A DNA stretch of 28,333 nucleotides from a virus: the IMG/VR virus record IMGVR_UViG_3300030450_001814, positions 1 to 28,333 of that record; one strand, written 5' to 3'. Below are positions 20,378 to 28,333 of this stretch, one piece after another; position 1 is the first letter of the stretch, and each line of letters begins with the position of its first letter. The position numbers and the translations under genes are program-made. Below the pieces are notes generated by a model. It was not told the origin of the DNA and made no database searches. It saw only the letters and a program-made list of their open reading frames with translations.

Positions 20378-20521
20378 ATGATGTGTAAATGTGATGAAGG
20401 ACTAATAGATAGTCTTAAAGAGCAGGAATGTCCATTGGAAGATATGGCCATGTTATTAATGTTCTTTGAGGGCATACACAGTGCTGATTGCGAGCATTGT
20501 GATCTATTTATTGCGGGATAG
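20378..20521 (+). CDS. 47-residue Cys-containing protein, overlapping the tRNA
   Basis: Starts MMCKCDEGLIDSLKEQEC after a TAGGAG site. It has a CxC at the N-terminus and CxxC near the end (DCEHCDL), which could bind one metal. The middle is a short Met-rich hydrophobic helix (DMAMLLMFFEG). Its stop codon lies inside the first bases of the tRNA gene, so mRNA processing of the tRNA would remove the end of this gene. Function unknown. Confidence 0.5.
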   Translation: MMCKCDEGLIDSLKEQECPLEDMAMLLMFFEGIHSADCEHCDLFIAG

Positions 20522-20583
20522 AGGAATGGTACCTCACTTGGCTCATAACCAAGAGGTTGGCAGTTCGAGTCTGTCTCCCGCAT
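20512..20583 (+). tRNA. tRNA with CAT anticodon (Ile2 or Met)
   Basis: Full cloverleaf read by eye: acceptor TGCGGGA/TCCCGCA (7 of 7), T8-A9, D stem GAGG/CCTC, anticodon stem CTTGG/CCAAG with loop CTCATAA (anticodon CAT at 20544-20546), a five-base variable region and T arm GGCAG/CTGTC with loop TTCGAGT. CCA is not encoded. The anticodon stem lacks the three G-C pairs of initiator tRNA. The phage uses ATA heavily, so an Ile tRNA with lysidine-modified CAT is attractive, but elongator Met cannot be excluded. Confidence 0.9.
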
Positions 20584-20587
20584 CAAA

Positions 20588-22600: not shown

Positions 22601-22810
22601 ATGCCTACAATTAATCTACTTAATAACTCATCTTCATTTGCTGAAACTGAAGTAACATCAACTACTGTTGGTTCATTAAGACGTGAATTAAACTTACATA
22701 GTCACACTATTAATGTAAACAGAACTGTTGTTGCTGATGATTATGCTTTAGAAGATGGAATGAATGTAGCTGCTGTATCATCAAATAAAACTGGTGGTGA
22801 AGCCAAATAA
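22601..22810 (+). CDS. Ubiquitin-like protein (ThiS/MoaD-type beta-grasp) with masked di-glycine
   Basis: A 69-residue protein. Residues 36-66 (TINVNRTVVADDYAL, then EDGMNVAAVSSNKTGG) follow the ThiS/MoaD pattern of VN-x-x-V, an L-x-x-G-x-x-V-x-V strand and a GG tail. In ThiS, MoaD and ubiquitin the C-terminal Gly is adenylated by an E1. Here Gly65-Gly66 is followed by EAK, so the mature GG would need to be released by a peptidase, as in pro-ubiquitin; the JAB gene two genes downstream could do this. AGGAGGGCAT precedes the ATG. It is read here as the modifier of a four-gene conjugation cassette. Confidence 0.8.
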   Translation: MPTINLLNNSSSFAETEVTSTTVGSLRRELNLHSHTINVNRTVVADDYALEDGMNVAAVSSNKTGGEAK

Positions 22811-22822
22811 GCTATTAACGTT

Positions 22823-22901
22823 AGGTCATGAGGGAGTGATACGTGTACATGTAAGCCCACGCAATGCGCAGCGCTTTGTAATCTTCACTCCTTTATGCCT
22901 T
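22823..22901 (+). ncRNA. Long hairpin leader of the E2-like gene
   Basis: In the 106 bases between Ubl and E2-like genes, bases 22827-22839 pair with 22885-22897 over 13 positions with two G-U pairs, and three more pairs follow past one mismatch. About 45 bases lie in the loop with smaller stems. The 3' arm ends six bases before the GGAGG of the E2-like gene, and its CTCC could pair with that GGAGG instead. It may set E2-like expression relative to Ubl. No known motif recognised. Confidence 0.55.
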
Positions 22902-22916
22902 TAAACTGGAGGATTT

Positions 22917-24527
22917 ATGCAAAATTTCGAGAGATATAGTATAGACGTAGGGTCTGCTATGGATGATCTTTATATTGGTCCCCAAGCAGAAGTGTTGGAA
23001 AAGATTGCTAACTTCAATAATAATTATTGTCGTGGTAATAATGAATTATTTTTAGGTGTAACTCCTAAATTTAGATGGAAGCCTGGTAGTTATGATAAAG
23101 TTAAAGATATTTTATCTAATGTATGGCTAAGATGGAATATGAGACCATCTGGTATGAATAGTATATTTACAAGAGAACAAACTTATACTAAAGGTAGGCT
23201 TAAAGAAGCATTACTTGAGATAGAAACAATACTATGTAGATTTAGGAATGAAGGTAGAGTATTTGTTACTGATAGGACTGTGATAACTGAATCTTTCAAT
23301 ATATTAAAGAATAAACTATTAGAAGAAACTGATAAAATATCTAAAATACATGAAAATGTTAGTTTACAAATACTTAATGCTGATGATGAGTTTAGTCAAC
23401 ATATAATAGAGTTAGTATTGCCTATTGAAGATATTGTTATAAAAGTTAAGGTAGGAGGAAGAAATAGAGCAGGAGATGAAAGAGATATTGGTGATATTCC
23501 ATTTGGAGATATAAAGTTAAGATTTAGAATGCCTTTATCTAAATGGTTTAATGTATTATACAATAATTTAGAGTCTAATACTTTAGATGGAATTAGTCTT
23601 CCTACAAATCTTTTGACTCATCATAGTAATGGAAGAGGAAACTTTACTTGTAATGCTGAAATATATCCTAAACATATGGGATTAAGACATCCATATGTCT
23701 CTACTTATAGACAAGGCTATGGAGCTGCTGGAAATAATGTATGTATGGGGGAGATGATGCGAGATATTATAGGATGTTTTCTTAAATTAGATTGGACATC
23801 TATGATATACTGGATAGACACTTGGCTTTCTACATATAAAGTAGGTGTTACTGGTCCATTAAATGATATGAGATACGCAAGTATAGGTAAACAAACTATA
23901 TTATTAGATGGAAAAGATAATAGTGAAGACTATTATAGTGTTGTAGCACCGCCATCTACTGGTAGTTGTTGGGATACTCAATATGAATGGATAAGAGGAC
24001 GTCATCCTGAAAGAGATCAAATATCAAACATATCAGCTGAAGTTATTAAACAGTGTGATGAAATTAACTGTCAACTAAAATCTGAGTGTTCTGGCTACAA
24101 GGCTAATACTATAGATATAGCTTTACAGCTTAAATTAGATAAGTTTGTATCTGATAACTGTTTATTTGAAATTTTAATGCCTAATCAACAAGAATATGAA
24201 GAAGAGTGTATATATTATCAAAATATATTATCAGATAGTGTTTTTCCAATATCAAATAATATTCGTATTCCATGGGAATTAATTCAAGAAGCTATAAAGA
24301 ATAAATCTTTTCCTATAGTATCTAAACTATTTGAGTTTATGATTAATGAAAATATTGTAACTATAGTAGATGATGATCCATTATGGGAAGATATAATTGG
24401 TGAAGTAATAAACGGTGACAAACATGAAGATATATGTCAAGCTTTAACTGAGCTTATGGGTAAACCAGAGCCAATAACTGATGAACAAAACGACATGTTA
24501 GATTGGGTCGCTGCAATGAGACAATAA
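22917..24527 (+). CDS. E2-like ubiquitin-conjugation protein candidate
   Basis: A 536-residue protein with GGAGGATTT before the ATG. Residues about 200-310 carry an E2-like block: IYPKHMGLRHPYVS (His258-Pro259-Tyr-Val) and AGNNVCMGEM with Cys276 as the likely catalytic residue, followed by LDWTSMIYWIDTWL. E2 enzymes have HPNV, then a Cys after G-x-x-C-L, then a W-x-P helix. Residues 1-165 are helical; 350-391 carry four Cys (351, 380, 385, 391) that could bind metal; 392-536 is acidic and helical. It lies between Ubl and JAB genes. The E2 reading is strong from context but rests on a short motif. Confidence 0.65.
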   Translation: MQNFERYSIDVGSAMDDLYIGPQAEVLEKIANFNNNYCRGNNELFLGVTPKFRWKPGSYDKVKDILSNVWLRWNMRPSGMNSIFTREQTYTKGRLKEALLEIETILCRFRNEGRVFVTDRTVITESFNILKNKLLEETDKISKIHENVSLQILNADDEFSQHIIELVLPIEDIVIKVKVGGRNRAGDERDIGDIPFGDIKLRFRMPLSKWFNVLYNNLESNTLDGISLPTNLLTHHSNGRGNFTCNAEIYPKHMGLRHPYVSTYRQGYGAAGNNVCMGEMMRDIIGCFLKLDWTSMIYWIDTWLSTYKVGVTGPLNDMRYASIGKQTILLDGKDNSEDYYSVVAPPSTGSCWDTQYEWIRGRHPERDQISNISAEVIKQCDEINCQLKSECSGYKANTIDIALQLKLDKFVSDNCLFEILMPNQQEYEEECIYYQNILSDSVFPISNNIRIPWELIQEAIKNKSFPIVSKLFEFMINENIVTIVDDDPLWEDIIGEVINGDKHEDICQALTELMGKPEPITDEQNDMLDWVAAMRQ

Positions 24528-24589
24528 TAAAATTATCCTATTAAACTATAACGAGAGTATAGAATGGGATACTAACCTTGGAGGTAATA

Positions 24590-25597
24590 ATGAGTGAATT
24601 TTATATTCAACAGAAAGATTGGCGTAAGATAATAAATTACGCAACAGCCAGAGAACAGGAATGTGGCGATGAAATAGGAGGAATGGCTATTGCTAGACAA
24701 GATGAAGATAAAGATTGGATAATATCTCATCCTACTATTTTAAAACAAAAGACTACTGGAGGAACTTGTACATTAGATAAAGATGAATTAGCTCAATATT
24801 ATTCAGATATGGCAGCTAAATTTGGAACTAATATACAATTTGTTTGGTGGCATTCTCATGCTAAAATGGGAGCATTCTGGTCTGGTACTGATACAGCTAC
24901 AATGAAAGAATATGCAGCAGGTAACTGGAGTATGTTTTTAGTTGTAAATGTAAGAGAAGAATACAAATTTAGAGTACAATACTGGAATCCTATTGAATTA
25001 GGTGAAGATATTGATCTAAATATTGTATCTAAAGAAAAAGAGAAAGTTATTCCTAAATCTATATTGAAAGAAATAGAGAATAAATGCGAAGAAGAACACA
25101 CAATCTCTAAGAATGGATATGGATATAATTACAAATCTTACTTAAGAAACAATTCTCAGTCTAATTTGTTTAACCATACTAAAACTAATATAGATTCTGA
25201 TAAAGATGATTTAATAGCTTCTATAAACTTAGTTTGTACTGGGGGATCAATGAATTATGGACATCAAATAGATATACAAGAAGATCCTATAGTATATTTA
25301 CATGAACAATTAGATATGGGTAACTCTAATTATTGTGATGGAACTATTGATTATGCACGCTATAAAAAGGCTGTTTATCAATTTAATAAAACATTAAAAG
25401 AGTTAGAAGGTGTTAATACACCTAAAATTAGAGTTAAATTGTATTCTGAATCTAAATTACTTGATAAATGCATGACTTTAAATCCTGTTGAATTTATAAC
25501 AATAGATAATAAAAGTGCATATGATCTTTATTTAGAATCTCTAACTGAAGATGCAGAAGAAAAAGATTGGAATAATTCATTTGGAGTGGGGGTATAA
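24590..25597 (+). CDS. JAB/JAMM metallopeptidase, deubiquitinase-like
   Basis: A 335-residue protein. I chose the ATG at 24590, four bases after GGAGGT; the longer TTG frame from 24578 covers the ribosome site itself. The JAMM motif is complete: Glu28 (DEIGGMAIA), then WWHSH (His88, His90), seven residues, Ser98, two residues, Asp101. These bind zinc and cut isopeptide or Gly-x bonds. Residues 130-335 form an extra domain of unknown type. In Ubl operons such enzymes mature the modifier and remove it from targets. Its TAA overlaps the E1-like start (TAATG). Confidence 0.92.
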   Translation: MSEFYIQQKDWRKIINYATAREQECGDEIGGMAIARQDEDKDWIISHPTILKQKTTGGTCTLDKDELAQYYSDMAAKFGTNIQFVWWHSHAKMGAFWSGTDTATMKEYAAGNWSMFLVVNVREEYKFRVQYWNPIELGEDIDLNIVSKEKEKVIPKSILKEIENKCEEEHTISKNGYGYNYKSYLRNNSQSNLFNHTKTNIDSDKDDLIASINLVCTGGSMNYGHQIDIQEDPIVYLHEQLDMGNSNYCDGTIDYARYKKAVYQFNKTLKELEGVNTPKIRVKLYSESKLLDKCMTLNPVEFITIDNKSAYDLYLESLTEDAEEKDWNNSFGVGV

Positions 25598-26250
25598 TGG
25601 TAAACGAAAGATCTATAGGCATAGTTGATAATTTAGATAATTATGTCTATCACATACTTGGTTGTGGAGCTATTGGAAGTTCCACAGCCATACAATTAGC
25701 TAGGATGGGAGCTAAAGAAATAACATTATATGATTTTGATAAAGTTGAGATACAAAATGTAGGAGTGTCTCAATACTTTAATAGTGACGTAGGGGACTAT
25801 AAAGTAGATGCTTTAAAGAATCATATAAAAGCTATAGATAATTCTATATATGTAGCAACTCATCCTCACAGGTTTGATACTTGGGAAAGTACTGATAAAG
25901 AAGATATAGTAGTTTTAGGTTTCGATAGCATGCAAAGTAGACTTGAAGCTGTGACTATCATCACAAATAAAGGTAATTCTCATAAACCATTTGCTGTCAT
26001 TGATGGTAGAATGGGTGCAGAACATTATCAACAATATCTCTTTGTTAAACCTACCCTTAAATCCTATCTTAGATCATGGTATAGTGATCAAGATGGCGAT
26101 CCTGAACCCTGCAATGCAAAGGCTACTAGTTATTGTTCTAACATGTCTGGAAGTTTCATCGTTAATTCTATAAGGAAACTGATTACTAATCAACCCCTTG
26201 ATAAAGAACTAGCTTTTAATTTCCCAACAATGATGATAGAATCAAAATAA
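25597..26250 (+). CDS. ThiF/E1-like Ubl-activating enzyme
   Basis: A 217-residue single-domain Rossmann enzyme: GCGAIGS (Gly22-Ser28) nucleotide site, LYDFDKVEIQNV with Asp46, Asp48 and Asn54, and GDYKVDAL with Lys69, all E1-family hallmarks. Asp110 (GFD) is the second conserved acid. Cys172 and Cys180 (PCNAKATSYCSN) are candidates for the thioester site. The usual arginine-glutamine after Asn is replaced (NVGVSQY). It would adenylate the Ubl C-terminal Gly66. GGAGTGGGGGT and a TAATG overlap link it to the JAB gene. Strong family call; the missing Arg is noted as odd. Confidence 0.9.
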   Translation: MVNERSIGIVDNLDNYVYHILGCGAIGSSTAIQLARMGAKEITLYDFDKVEIQNVGVSQYFNSDVGDYKVDALKNHIKAIDNSIYVATHPHRFDTWESTDKEDIVVLGFDSMQSRLEAVTIITNKGNSHKPFAVIDGRMGAEHYQQYLFVKPTLKSYLRSWYSDQDGDPEPCNAKATSYCSNMSGSFIVNSIRKLITNQPLDKELAFNFPTMMIESK

Positions 26251-26440: not shown

Positions 26441-27202
26441 ATGAAGATGTTATACTTCGACCTAGAACATGGGTCACAATCGTTGGGCTCTAAGAAGGAT
26501 GTAGAAGCTATATTTGGCTACCCTTGTTTAGAACCTAAAAGCTGGGACCAATTCCAGTCTACTATAGGAAAGATTTATACACAAAAATCTAAACAAGTAG
26601 AAGTTAAAATTGGAGATCTCACAATAACAGAAGATAGAGTTGAAGTAGTACCTAGAAATGGCACTGTATTACATGGTGTAGTTCTTGATACTTTTTCAGA
26701 ACTATCTAAGAAATTTATGAGAAGTATATCTGACAAAGATGGTAAAATGAGATTACAAGGATGGGGACAACTAAAGAATAAATTAGATACTGCATTAGAA
26801 TTTATCTCTAGAATACCTGGTGTTGTAATTTGTAATTGCCATTCAAAAGTTCAATCTATGGATGAGTGCAATAAAGTTGTACCTTATATAGATGGATCAA
26901 CTAAAGAAGATATATCTAAATGGTTTGATTTTGTTCTTTATACCAAAACAGTTCTTAAAACAAGTGGTGAAAGAGAATATGTTTGGGTTACTAAAAGATG
27001 TGAAATTTATGACCATGCTAAAGATAGAACAAACTTACTACCTGCTCAAATTCCTCAAGATTATCAGTTAATTATTGACGCTGCTAAACAAAAAGGATTC
27101 GAAGGATGCAAGATATTAGTTATCGGTGCTCCTGGTAGTGGTAAGACAATGAGTTTGCAAACACTAAAAGAAGGAGGTGCTCGTGAGAACACTAACGATT
27201 AA
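26441..27202 (+). CDS. Sak4-like recombination ATPase, apparently circularly permuted
   Basis: A 253-residue protein of the phage Sak4/AAA_24 type (RecA-like annealing-recombination ATPase). It opens with KMLYFDLEHGSQSLG, which in normal members follows the P-loop. Then HGVVLDTFSEL (Walker B Asp83), a sensor-like VVICNCHSK and WVTKRCEIYDHAKDRT, and finally the P-loop KILVIGAPGSGKTMSLQTL (229-236) near the C-terminus. The usual order is P-loop first, so the gene looks permuted between the first helix and second strand. AAGGAGAGAAGAAC precedes the start. Followed by an ssDNA-binding candidate, as in other Sak4 modules. Confidence 0.8.
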   Translation: MKMLYFDLEHGSQSLGSKKDVEAIFGYPCLEPKSWDQFQSTIGKIYTQKSKQVEVKIGDLTITEDRVEVVPRNGTVLHGVVLDTFSELSKKFMRSISDKDGKMRLQGWGQLKNKLDTALEFISRIPGVVICNCHSKVQSMDECNKVVPYIDGSTKEDISKWFDFVLYTKTVLKTSGEREYVWVTKRCEIYDHAKDRTNLLPAQIPQDYQLIIDAAKQKGFEGCKILVIGAPGSGKTMSLQTLKEGGARENTND

Positions 27203-27713
27203 ATCAGGCGGAGGTGGAGGAAACTTTACTGACGGCTGGAATCATGTAGAAATAACAAAAGCTAAATATGGCGAATGGGAAGGAACAAAGTTTATCGATG
27301 TTCATTTCAAAGATTTTCCTGAAACTTTAAATATGCGTTGCTACGCTAAGAAAGGTAAAGATGGAGAAGAATTTGCTATTGGCAGATTATTTCGTTTTGC
27401 AAATGCTGGTTTAACTGAAGCATTAGAAGGCGATGACGGCACTAAAGTTGTCAAGCTTGATGATTCAGCAGATCAGCTAGTGGGTAAACACTTAAATGTA
27501 TTCCTATATAAAGATGGTGAATATTTTAGAGTACTTACTCAACCTGCTCCAACAGAGTTTACTAATGTAGTAGAAACATTTAAAGAAAATGATGTTGCCT
27601 ACTGGAAAGGTAAAGCTGAAAAATACTATCACGATTATATTGAAAAGAATACAGCATCTAATGGTGTGTTCACTTCAACTAGTGAAGATGTATTTGCAGG
27701 AATGCCCGAATAA
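27183..27713 (+). CDS. DUF669-like ssDNA-binding protein candidate
   Basis: A 176-residue protein starting at the GTG at 27183 after AAGGAGG (an earlier in-frame GTG at 27177 lies in the ribosome site). It overlaps the Sak4-like gene end by 20 bases. The N-terminal NFTDGWNHVEITKAKYGEW and GTKFIDVHF strands suggest an OB-like fold; the end is a helical tail (YWKGKAEKYYHDYIEK) and an acidic tip. DUF669-type ssDNA-binding proteins are usually encoded beside Sak4 enzymes, which supports the role of coating ssDNA for annealing. Family call is from pattern and neighbourhood. Confidence 0.65.
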   Translation: MRTLTIKSGGGGGNFTDGWNHVEITKAKYGEWEGTKFIDVHFKDFPETLNMRCYAKKGKDGEEFAIGRLFRFANAGLTEALEGDDGTKVVKLDDSADQLVGKHLNVFLYKDGEYFRVLTQPAPTEFTNVVETFKENDVAYWKGKAEKYYHDYIEKNTASNGVFTSTSEDVFAGMPE

Positions 27714-27822: not shown

Positions 27823-28333
27823 ATGATCAAAGAATTTGCCTTTGGCTTGAGTAGACGTCATTATTTTCAGGATGCTTCTCAAATCGAACAATGGTTAGGG
27901 TTAGACAGTAATACTTTTATGTCTTTATATGATTATGATGATGATGTAAAAGAATATTTCGCTAAGAAAAACACCCTGTCTGGATATAATGGAAAGATAT
28001 ATATACCAGATGAATTTATCTTAGACATAGATGGAGCCAATGTAGATGTAGCACTATCTAAGTGTCATAAATTAATAGAGTTATTGAAATCACTTAAAGT
28101 ATTTTACTATCTCTATTTCAGTGGTACAGGATTCCATTTACACATATCAGGAAAAGCTTTTAGATGGAAACCTGACATTAATTTGCATACTAAATTAAAG
28201 AAAGTTTTAAATGATTATAAAGTATGGGAACATGCTGATCCTTCAGTAACAGATAAAACAAGAATAATAAGAGTTCCAAATACAAAGAATACTAAATCTA
28301 ATCTTTATAAAGTATGGATTAAAGAGGATTGGA
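27823..28333 (+). CDS. Archaeo-eukaryotic-type primase, C-terminus beyond the window
   Basis: 170 codons of an open frame cut by the right edge. It has the AEP catalytic set: LDIDGANV (Asp68, Asp70 for metal), SGTGFHLHI (100-108, His105 and His107) and RIIRVPNT (Arg147, Arg150) followed by KSNLYKV. These bind the nucleotide and metals for primer synthesis. AGGAGAGAAG precedes the ATG. Phage AEP primases are often fused to a helicase, but that part would lie outside the window. Fits the replication module after Sak4 and the ssDNA-binding candidate. Confidence 0.85.
   Translation, partial: MIKEFAFGLSRRHYFQDASQIEQWLGLDSNTFMSLYDYDDDVKEYFAKKNTLSGYNGKIYIPDEFILDIDGANVDVALSKCHKLIELLKSLKVFYYLYFSGTGFHLHISGKAFRWKPDINLHTKLKKVLNDYKVWEHADPSVTDKTRIIRVPNTKNTKSNLYKVWIKEDW

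Follow-up and report, generated by a model that had tools for sequence, protein, structure and literature searches.

A predicted ubiquitin-like conjugation cassette carried by phages beside their replication and recombination genes

Known bacterial operons that combine E1, E2, JAB and ubiquitin-like protein (Ubl) genes belong to host defence (Bil) or are carried by plasmids and further kinds of mobile DNA (PRTRC among others). Why should a phage carry the full set? The question is raised by virus record IMGVR_UViG_3300030450_001814, which was analyzed at its full length of 28,333 bases (the window). A preliminary description of this DNA had read four adjacent open reading frames (ORFs) as encoding a Ubl, an E2-like protein, a JAB peptidase and an E1; the four ORFs were confirmed at their positions (Table 1), together with the TAATG in which the JAB stop and the E1 start overlap. 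Here the full set was found to be a modular, position-bound part of phage replication-recombination blocks. The cassette is likely a self-contained and reversible phage pathway of Ubl conjugation, with targets tentatively placed at single-stranded DNA (ssDNA) and at replication or recombination intermediates. Searches of the open-access literature brought up no account of such a cassette in phages; subscription papers or preprints could hold one.

Relatives were collected by an E1 profile search of viral contigs, which returned 351 related stretches, and family profiles were built from 76 distinct E1 loci with 49 aligned relatives for the Ubl, 55 for the E2-like protein, 69 for the JAB and 77 for the E1. 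The AlphaFold model of the Ubl (pLDDT 84) contained the beta-grasp elements and matched ThiS, MoaD and ubiquitin folds, the best VIA match being ThiS 2lek (Z 9.0 over 63 residues, 3.1 A), with ThiS of 1zud and MoaD of 1jwb both at Z 7.3. The match to Pfam ThiS was weak (0.048, below the family cut-off), and hmmsearch linked the Ubl to MoaD with an E-value of 0.0034. The sequence ends KTGG-EAK. K63, G65 and G66 were each present in 49/49 relatives, and residue 64 was T in 30, S in 12 and V in 7. Beyond the GG, the relatives carry a tail of 0 to 9 amino acids or else a complete additional domain some 110-120 residues long, and such a variable tail is expected of a precursor matured by the JAB. 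Fusions after K-TGG were observed at L071:2288-2875, L096:2686-3297 and L100:3707-4327, with a weak DUF7303 match in two of them, and resemble ubiquitin fusion precursors. Because the invariant Lys63 immediately precedes TGG, the tryptic remnant on lysines is predicted to be TGG instead of GG, with SGG or VGG expected for relatives.

By sequence, the JAB came closest among solved structures to an Rpn11-like JAMM from Caldiarchaeum (E 5.4e-5), and E28, H88, S89, H90, S98 and D101 were each conserved in all 69 relatives; the longest ORF of this gene begins at a TTG at 24578. The E1 profile matched UBA6 (eukaryotic E1s), MccB, UBA5, ThiF, MoeB and Cap2, and its relatives measured 214-244 amino acids, one truncated sequence aside. 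The GxGxxG glycines (G22, G24, G27), D46, D48, N54 and K69 were found in 77/77 sequences, and D110, R115, C172 and C180 in 76/77, where the remaining sequence for C172 was the truncated one. Cys172 presumably corresponds to ThiF Cys184; the alignments to PDB structures ended before this region. Three residues singled out in the preliminary description were all invariant, namely E2 Cys276 (55/55), E1 Lys69 (77/77) and JAB His88 (69/69).

The AlphaFold model of the 536-residue E2-like protein (pLDDT 76.6, pTM 0.62) contained a helix (120-144), four strands (149-153, 163-179, 189-206 and 244-251), Cys276 and two further helices (278-290 and 293-305), and this order of elements is that of a UBC domain. 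UEV and E2 structures headed the VIA list, occupying 21 of the first 23 rows at Z 3.6-4.8, among them the UEV domain of TSG101 (4.8), E2-25K (4.6), UbcH7 (4.2) and Ubc15 (4.0). Cys276 and Pro314 were invariant (55/55 each). Four further conserved cysteines beyond the domain (Table 1) possibly form a metal site, zinc or Fe-S. The protein was the fastest-evolving of the cassette, with a median column conservation of 22% and a median identity of about 20% versus 56% for the E1, which fits a target-selecting role.

The four genes are inherited together. The Ubl, E2-like and JAB genes lay on the same strand as the E1 gene in 38/38 E1-fetched loci with at least 4.5 kb of upstream sequence. Since most loci were chosen by E1, this count tests the joint occurrence fairly. 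The gene order of the window was kept in 37 of these 38 complete loci, the remaining one having E2-Ubl-JAB-E1, and the possibility that the genes are never together in relatives was thereby refuted. The co-occurrence is well above chance. The JAB and E1 genes usually overlap or touch across relatives, and pairwise distances among the four protein families are correlated (r 0.65-0.85).

The position of the cassette is equally constant. An annealing protein, a single-stranded DNA-binding protein (SSB; homologue or analogue) and a primase-helicase directly followed the E1 in 52/52 loci with enough downstream sequence, although the annealing gene itself was Sak4 in 28 loci and the unrelated ERF in 24. 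When loci were selected by primase instead, 25 had at least 5.5 kb of upstream sequence; 14 of these contained the full cassette, 10 had none, and one had its Ubl just outside the fetched stretch. This partial-looking locus (L142) is from the same contig as L078, where the Ubl is present, and no locus among the 25 kept only part of the cassette. Mapped onto the primase tree, presence of the cassette requires five changes, and supported branches force at least three of these. The cassette thus behaves as a unit that is accessory to the replication module and occupies a constant place. Two cassette-free loci, L184:4963-6472 and L183:3705-6074, had other genes before Erf/SSB/primase. Both have a gene pair whose products measure about 130 and 325-372 amino acids, and L183 has in addition a 331-residue protein that may resemble DUF932.

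Sequence and fold show the kinds of protein encoded, the E2 being a probable one, together with the conservation of their catalytic residues, the joint inheritance of the genes and their position; from these we infer the following chemical cycle. The JAB would trim the short C-terminal tail of the Ubl precursor and expose Gly66, which the ThiF/MoeB-type E1 would adenylate with ATP before taking the Ubl onto Cys172. The Ubl would then be handed to Cys276 of the E2-like protein and ligated by it to lysines of target proteins, from which the JAB would cleave it off again. The large, fast-evolving flanks of the E2-like protein and its four-cysteine module may serve as E3. Candidate targets are the phage's own annealing protein (Sak4 or Erf), SSB and primase-helicase, or proteins of the host that act on ssDNA and on replication or recombination intermediates. 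The position beside annealing, SSB and primase genes favours targets in DNA replication or recombination, and this assignment, taken alone, is a tentative one. Should the pathway be active, phages themselves would use ubiquitin-like tagging during infection. This would matter for the biology of crAss phages, for how bacterial Ubl defences are understood and for the question of where the ubiquitin system came from.

Several observations weigh against this interpretation. No separate E3 gene is present, and the E1 lacks the arginine that is typical of NxxRQ (it reads N54-VGVSQ). Pfam and PDB sequence searches with the E2-like protein returned no meaningful match, the best Foldseek hit of its model had an E-value of 0.23, although the top entries were UEV or E2 structures, all VIA Z-scores were below 5, and the confidence of the model was moderate. 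The E2 fold expected of the 536-residue protein was recovered at moderate strength (VIA Z up to 4.8; Foldseek not significant), and by fold and motif the protein is probably an E2. The HPxV motif described for it stood in part, Pro259 being kept in 54/55 relatives and His258 in only 41/55, with Phe or Tyr in the other 14. A shared operon is no proof of a shared target, and the cascade is a prediction from sequence and fold. Finally, related phages do without the whole cassette; it is therefore dispensable for replication, which weakens a role in the core replisome.

The same dispensability favours a conditional role, for example counter-defence, in which identical chemistry would be directed at a host antiphage protein or would override a host Ubl-type defence. 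Phages with related primases gain or lose the cassette in one block, as would be the case for a host-dependent function, and the presumed target-choosing protein, the E2-like one, evolves fastest. Against this stand the fixed place beside the annealing, SSB and primase genes in every one of the 52 loci and the vicinity of the primase in Crassvirales and in FpV4, and no host or defence partner was identified. Counter-defence is thus possible and still doubtful, and targeting of replication or recombination was ranked slightly above it.

The Ubl could alternatively be a sulfur carrier processed by the JAB, delivering a thiocarboxylate for thiolation of nucleotides, tRNA or cofactors in the manner of ThiS/MoaD and ThiF, with the 536-residue protein as acceptor enzyme. 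The Ubl and the E1 do resemble ThiS/MoaD and ThiF, and sulfur-assimilation clusters with Ubl, JAB and E1 have been described (Iyer et al. 2006; PMC1779556). However, no recognisable desulfurase, rhodanese or thiolating enzyme was found among the genes that recur around the 76 loci, some of these genes being without a known family, and the elements of the fourth protein are ordered as in UBC domains, with an HP...Cys site. A sulfur carrier is accordingly unlikely. To the same degree we doubt that the E2-like protein is a non-catalytic scaffold of UEV/RWD type, with a structural Cys276 and an E1 that itself modifies the targets. The best fold matches, to the UEV domain of TSG101, are to a non-catalytic E2 variant, and the other four conserved cysteines look structural; but Cys276, part of an HP...[VI]C site, is kept in every relative (55/55), whereas UEV domains are not known to have this cysteine.

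Comparison with described systems showed where the cassette stands. Five types of E1/E2/JAB/Ubl operons were distinguished in bacteria and mobile elements by Iyer, Burroughs and Aravind (PMC1779556). The order had been likened to Bil-type antiphage operons, and it does equal that of BilABCD (PMC11354881): both have four components in the order Ubl-E2-JAB-E1 and a JAB that matures the Ubl, as predicted here. The domain make-up nevertheless rules out a Bil operon. BilABCD has a Ubl with two tandem domains, an E2 with a CEHH motif, a JAB, and an E1 that combines an inactive and an active adenylation domain with a Cys domain (PMC11354881). Here a single Ubl domain of 69 residues and a single-domain E1 of 217 residues without a Cys domain were found, and no His occurs among the residues of the E2-like protein after C276 (CMGEMMRDIIGCFLKLDW). 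Unlike Bil, the cassette is also phage-borne and lies beside replication genes. Bil is reported, as cited in PMC12135933, to hinder phage assembly through modification of the tail. Superinfection exclusion, with the Ubl placed on virion proteins of competing phages as by Bil on tails, is the most improbable of the alternatives, for although components and order match BilABCD, which is reported to modify tails, the domain make-up is unlike Bil, the set lies in a replication block and no self-protection gene was recognised.

The PRTRC cassette of plasmids (type 6d of Iyer et al. 2006; C, F, B, A, ThiF) shares the order Ubl-(F)-E2-JAB-E1 and the residence on mobile DNA. When PRTRC and cassette profiles were compared by hhalign, the E1 matched at 96% and the JAB at 77%, and NCBIfam PRTRC_ThiF matched at 5e-9. 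The Ubl and E2-like profiles gave no significant match to PRTRC C and B. The E1 scored 35.8 bits versus the TIGR03736 cut-off of 144.75; ParB, protein E and protein F were not seen in the window, the recurring neighbours being Erf/Sak4, SSB and primase; and the N-terminal domain of the PRTRC JAB is absent, the match beginning at residue 19 versus 84 in PRTRC A. By the features tested, the cassette is neither Bil nor PRTRC. The Ubl and JAB tail genes of lambdoid phages, which Iyer et al. (2006; PMC1779556) described separately from the operons, are likewise phage-borne (TAPI/TAPK of Lambda/T1), but they are tail genes without E1 or E2; the cassette, in contrast, lies on the opposite strand from the structural genes and beside Sak4/SSB/primase, not among tail genes. 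Eukaryotic ubiquitin and SUMO systems share the E1-E2-Ubl-JAMM logic, the HP...C site and a Ubl precursor that is sometimes fused to another protein, and differ in that here no E3 gene and no proteasome are found and the E1 is a minimal one of ThiF type.

The E1 occurs in hundreds of viral contigs, and a diverged set exists in cultured phages. Direct sequence searches of the annotated phage collection with the E2-like protein, the JAB and the Ubl found nothing; the E1 alone matched, in Crassvirales (cr128_1, cr106_1, crAss001, DAC15 and others) and in Flavobacterium phages of the FpV4 group. The genomes examined in these groups had the E1 accompanied by a homologous JAB near the primase (Table 1), a protein of 420-445 residues with an H-x-H...C site upstream of the JAB, and a beta-grasp-like Ubl candidate with KSG[GA] before a long extension. 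Homology of JAB and E1 between the environmental group and Crassvirales/FpV4 is solid. Homology of the E2-like protein and the Ubl is supported by gene order, motif and weak fold matches. Comparison of the E2-like profile with the Crassvirales/FpV4 candidates was not significant, giving 0.2% and, once the alignment had been enlarged, E 0.065 for a match around the Cys. Weak fold matches to the E2-like family were a cr128_1 protein (435 residues, E 9e-3) and A0A1B0WLX5 (420 residues, E 6e-3), the latter with the length of the FpV4 protein and a source that was not confirmed. The E1 tree placed the environmental group and Crassvirales/FpV4 in two supported clades apart from PRTRC, with several long branches. 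Shared between them are the order Ubl/E2-like/JAB/E1 near the primase, the terminal KSG[GA] of the Ubl domain and the H..C site. They differ in the long C-terminal extension of the Ubl, the N-terminal extension of the crAss E1 and the strong divergence of the E2-like protein. In the crAss candidates, the residues that are invariant do not include C351, C380, C385 and C391. The accessible papers on crAss001 and crAss-like phages contained no mention of ubiquitin, ThiF or thiamine.

That several phage lineages, cultured crAss-like ones included, possess a complete Ubl pathway dedicated to their own proteins at replication and recombination intermediates, reversed by the JAB, is a speculative extension and would be a prokaryotic viral counterpart of the modification of PCNA, RPA and Rad52. 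In cr106_1 (L021:3695-4898), an HNH endonuclease gene separates the Ubl, which ends in KSGKF, from what forms its C-terminal extension in relatives, leaving two genes. A limited pattern scan of 84,980 prokaryote species, each represented by a single genome, found no close E1 relative, only distant E1s and one contig with a full set. This contig (L028:4416-7657; WSZW01000107.1, labelled "archaeon isolate GLR112"), possibly viral, carries a compact Ubl/E1-type set. Its 152-residue protein resembles di-ubiquitin in having two nearly identical repeats that both end in PKIDGG, and its further genes encode a 227-residue protein in which HPHVSHGDVCVG precedes a Cys-rich tail, as well as a JAB, a 171-residue protein and an E1.

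Table 1. Positions of the cassette genes, their motifs, the adjacent module and the crAss001 counterpart (coordinates in the window unless a locus is named)
Feature	Position	Strand	Evidence or content
Ubl, ThiS/MoaD-like beta-grasp, 69 aa	22601..22810	+	ORF, AlphaFold model, VIA, hmmsearch
K63-T-G-G66 motif of Ubl	22787..22798	+	JAB cut predicted behind G66; EAK as tail
E2-like protein, 536 aa, with a UBC-like domain at about residues 124-351	22917..24527	+	AlphaFold, VIA
Active-site stretch of E2-like protein, His258-Pro259 to Cys276	23688..23744	+	conservation in 55 relatives
C351, C380, C385, C391 of E2-like protein	23967..24089	+	54/55 each
JAB/JAMM metalloprotease, 335 aa from ATG preceded by GGAGG	24590..25597	+	Prok-JAB 5.6e-6
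JAMM motif H88-S-H90-x7-S98-x2-D101, with upstream E28	24851..24892	+	conservation in 69 relatives
E1, ThiF/MoeB-type adenylating enzyme, single domain, 217 aa	25597..26250	+	Pfam ThiF 9.9e-21
E1 nucleotide-binding motif G22-C-G-A-I-G27	25660..25677	+	77/77
E1 Cys172, candidate thioester cysteine	26110..26112	+	76/77
Sak4-like ssDNA annealing ATPase, adjacent module	26441..27202	+	phrog_124 1.5e-22, AAA_24 4.6e-16
SSB-like protein, adjacent module	27177..27713	+	phrog_378 0.0098, weak
Primase-helicase, adjacent module, cut by window end	27823..28333	+	phrog_16345 primase 1.3e-12
crAss001 (NC_049977) set	L120:5395-9805		gp76 ThiF, gp77 metalloprotease, gp78 and gp79 hypothetical; primase gp80 adjoins

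The rest of the window confirmed the phage origin proposed for it, the minus strand carrying terminase, portal, major head and endolysin genes as well as metallo-phosphoesterase and tape-measure-like genes. The plus strand runs from a PNKP-type phosphatase through the Ubl, E2-like, JAB and E1 genes to the Sak4-like, SSB-like and primase genes, and a full-length relative of the primase-helicase, in the locus L100, contains PriCT_1 and DnaB_C. The preliminary description had set the cassette between a repair phosphatase and recombination/replication genes; its place in a phage replication-recombination block was upheld, and the phosphatase, present in 3/26 loci only, was dropped as a cassette part. 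A GGAGG-like site precedes the start of each of the Ubl, E2-like and JAB genes. No plus-strand terminator-like site was found between the four cassette genes, in a scan of the window for promoters and terminators whose signals were no commoner than in shuffled sequences. Judged from its position beside Sak4/SSB/primase, the cassette plausibly belongs to an early operon. A tRNA-Met gene (20512-20584) is located in the region that separates the structural genes of the minus strand from the genes of the plus strand.

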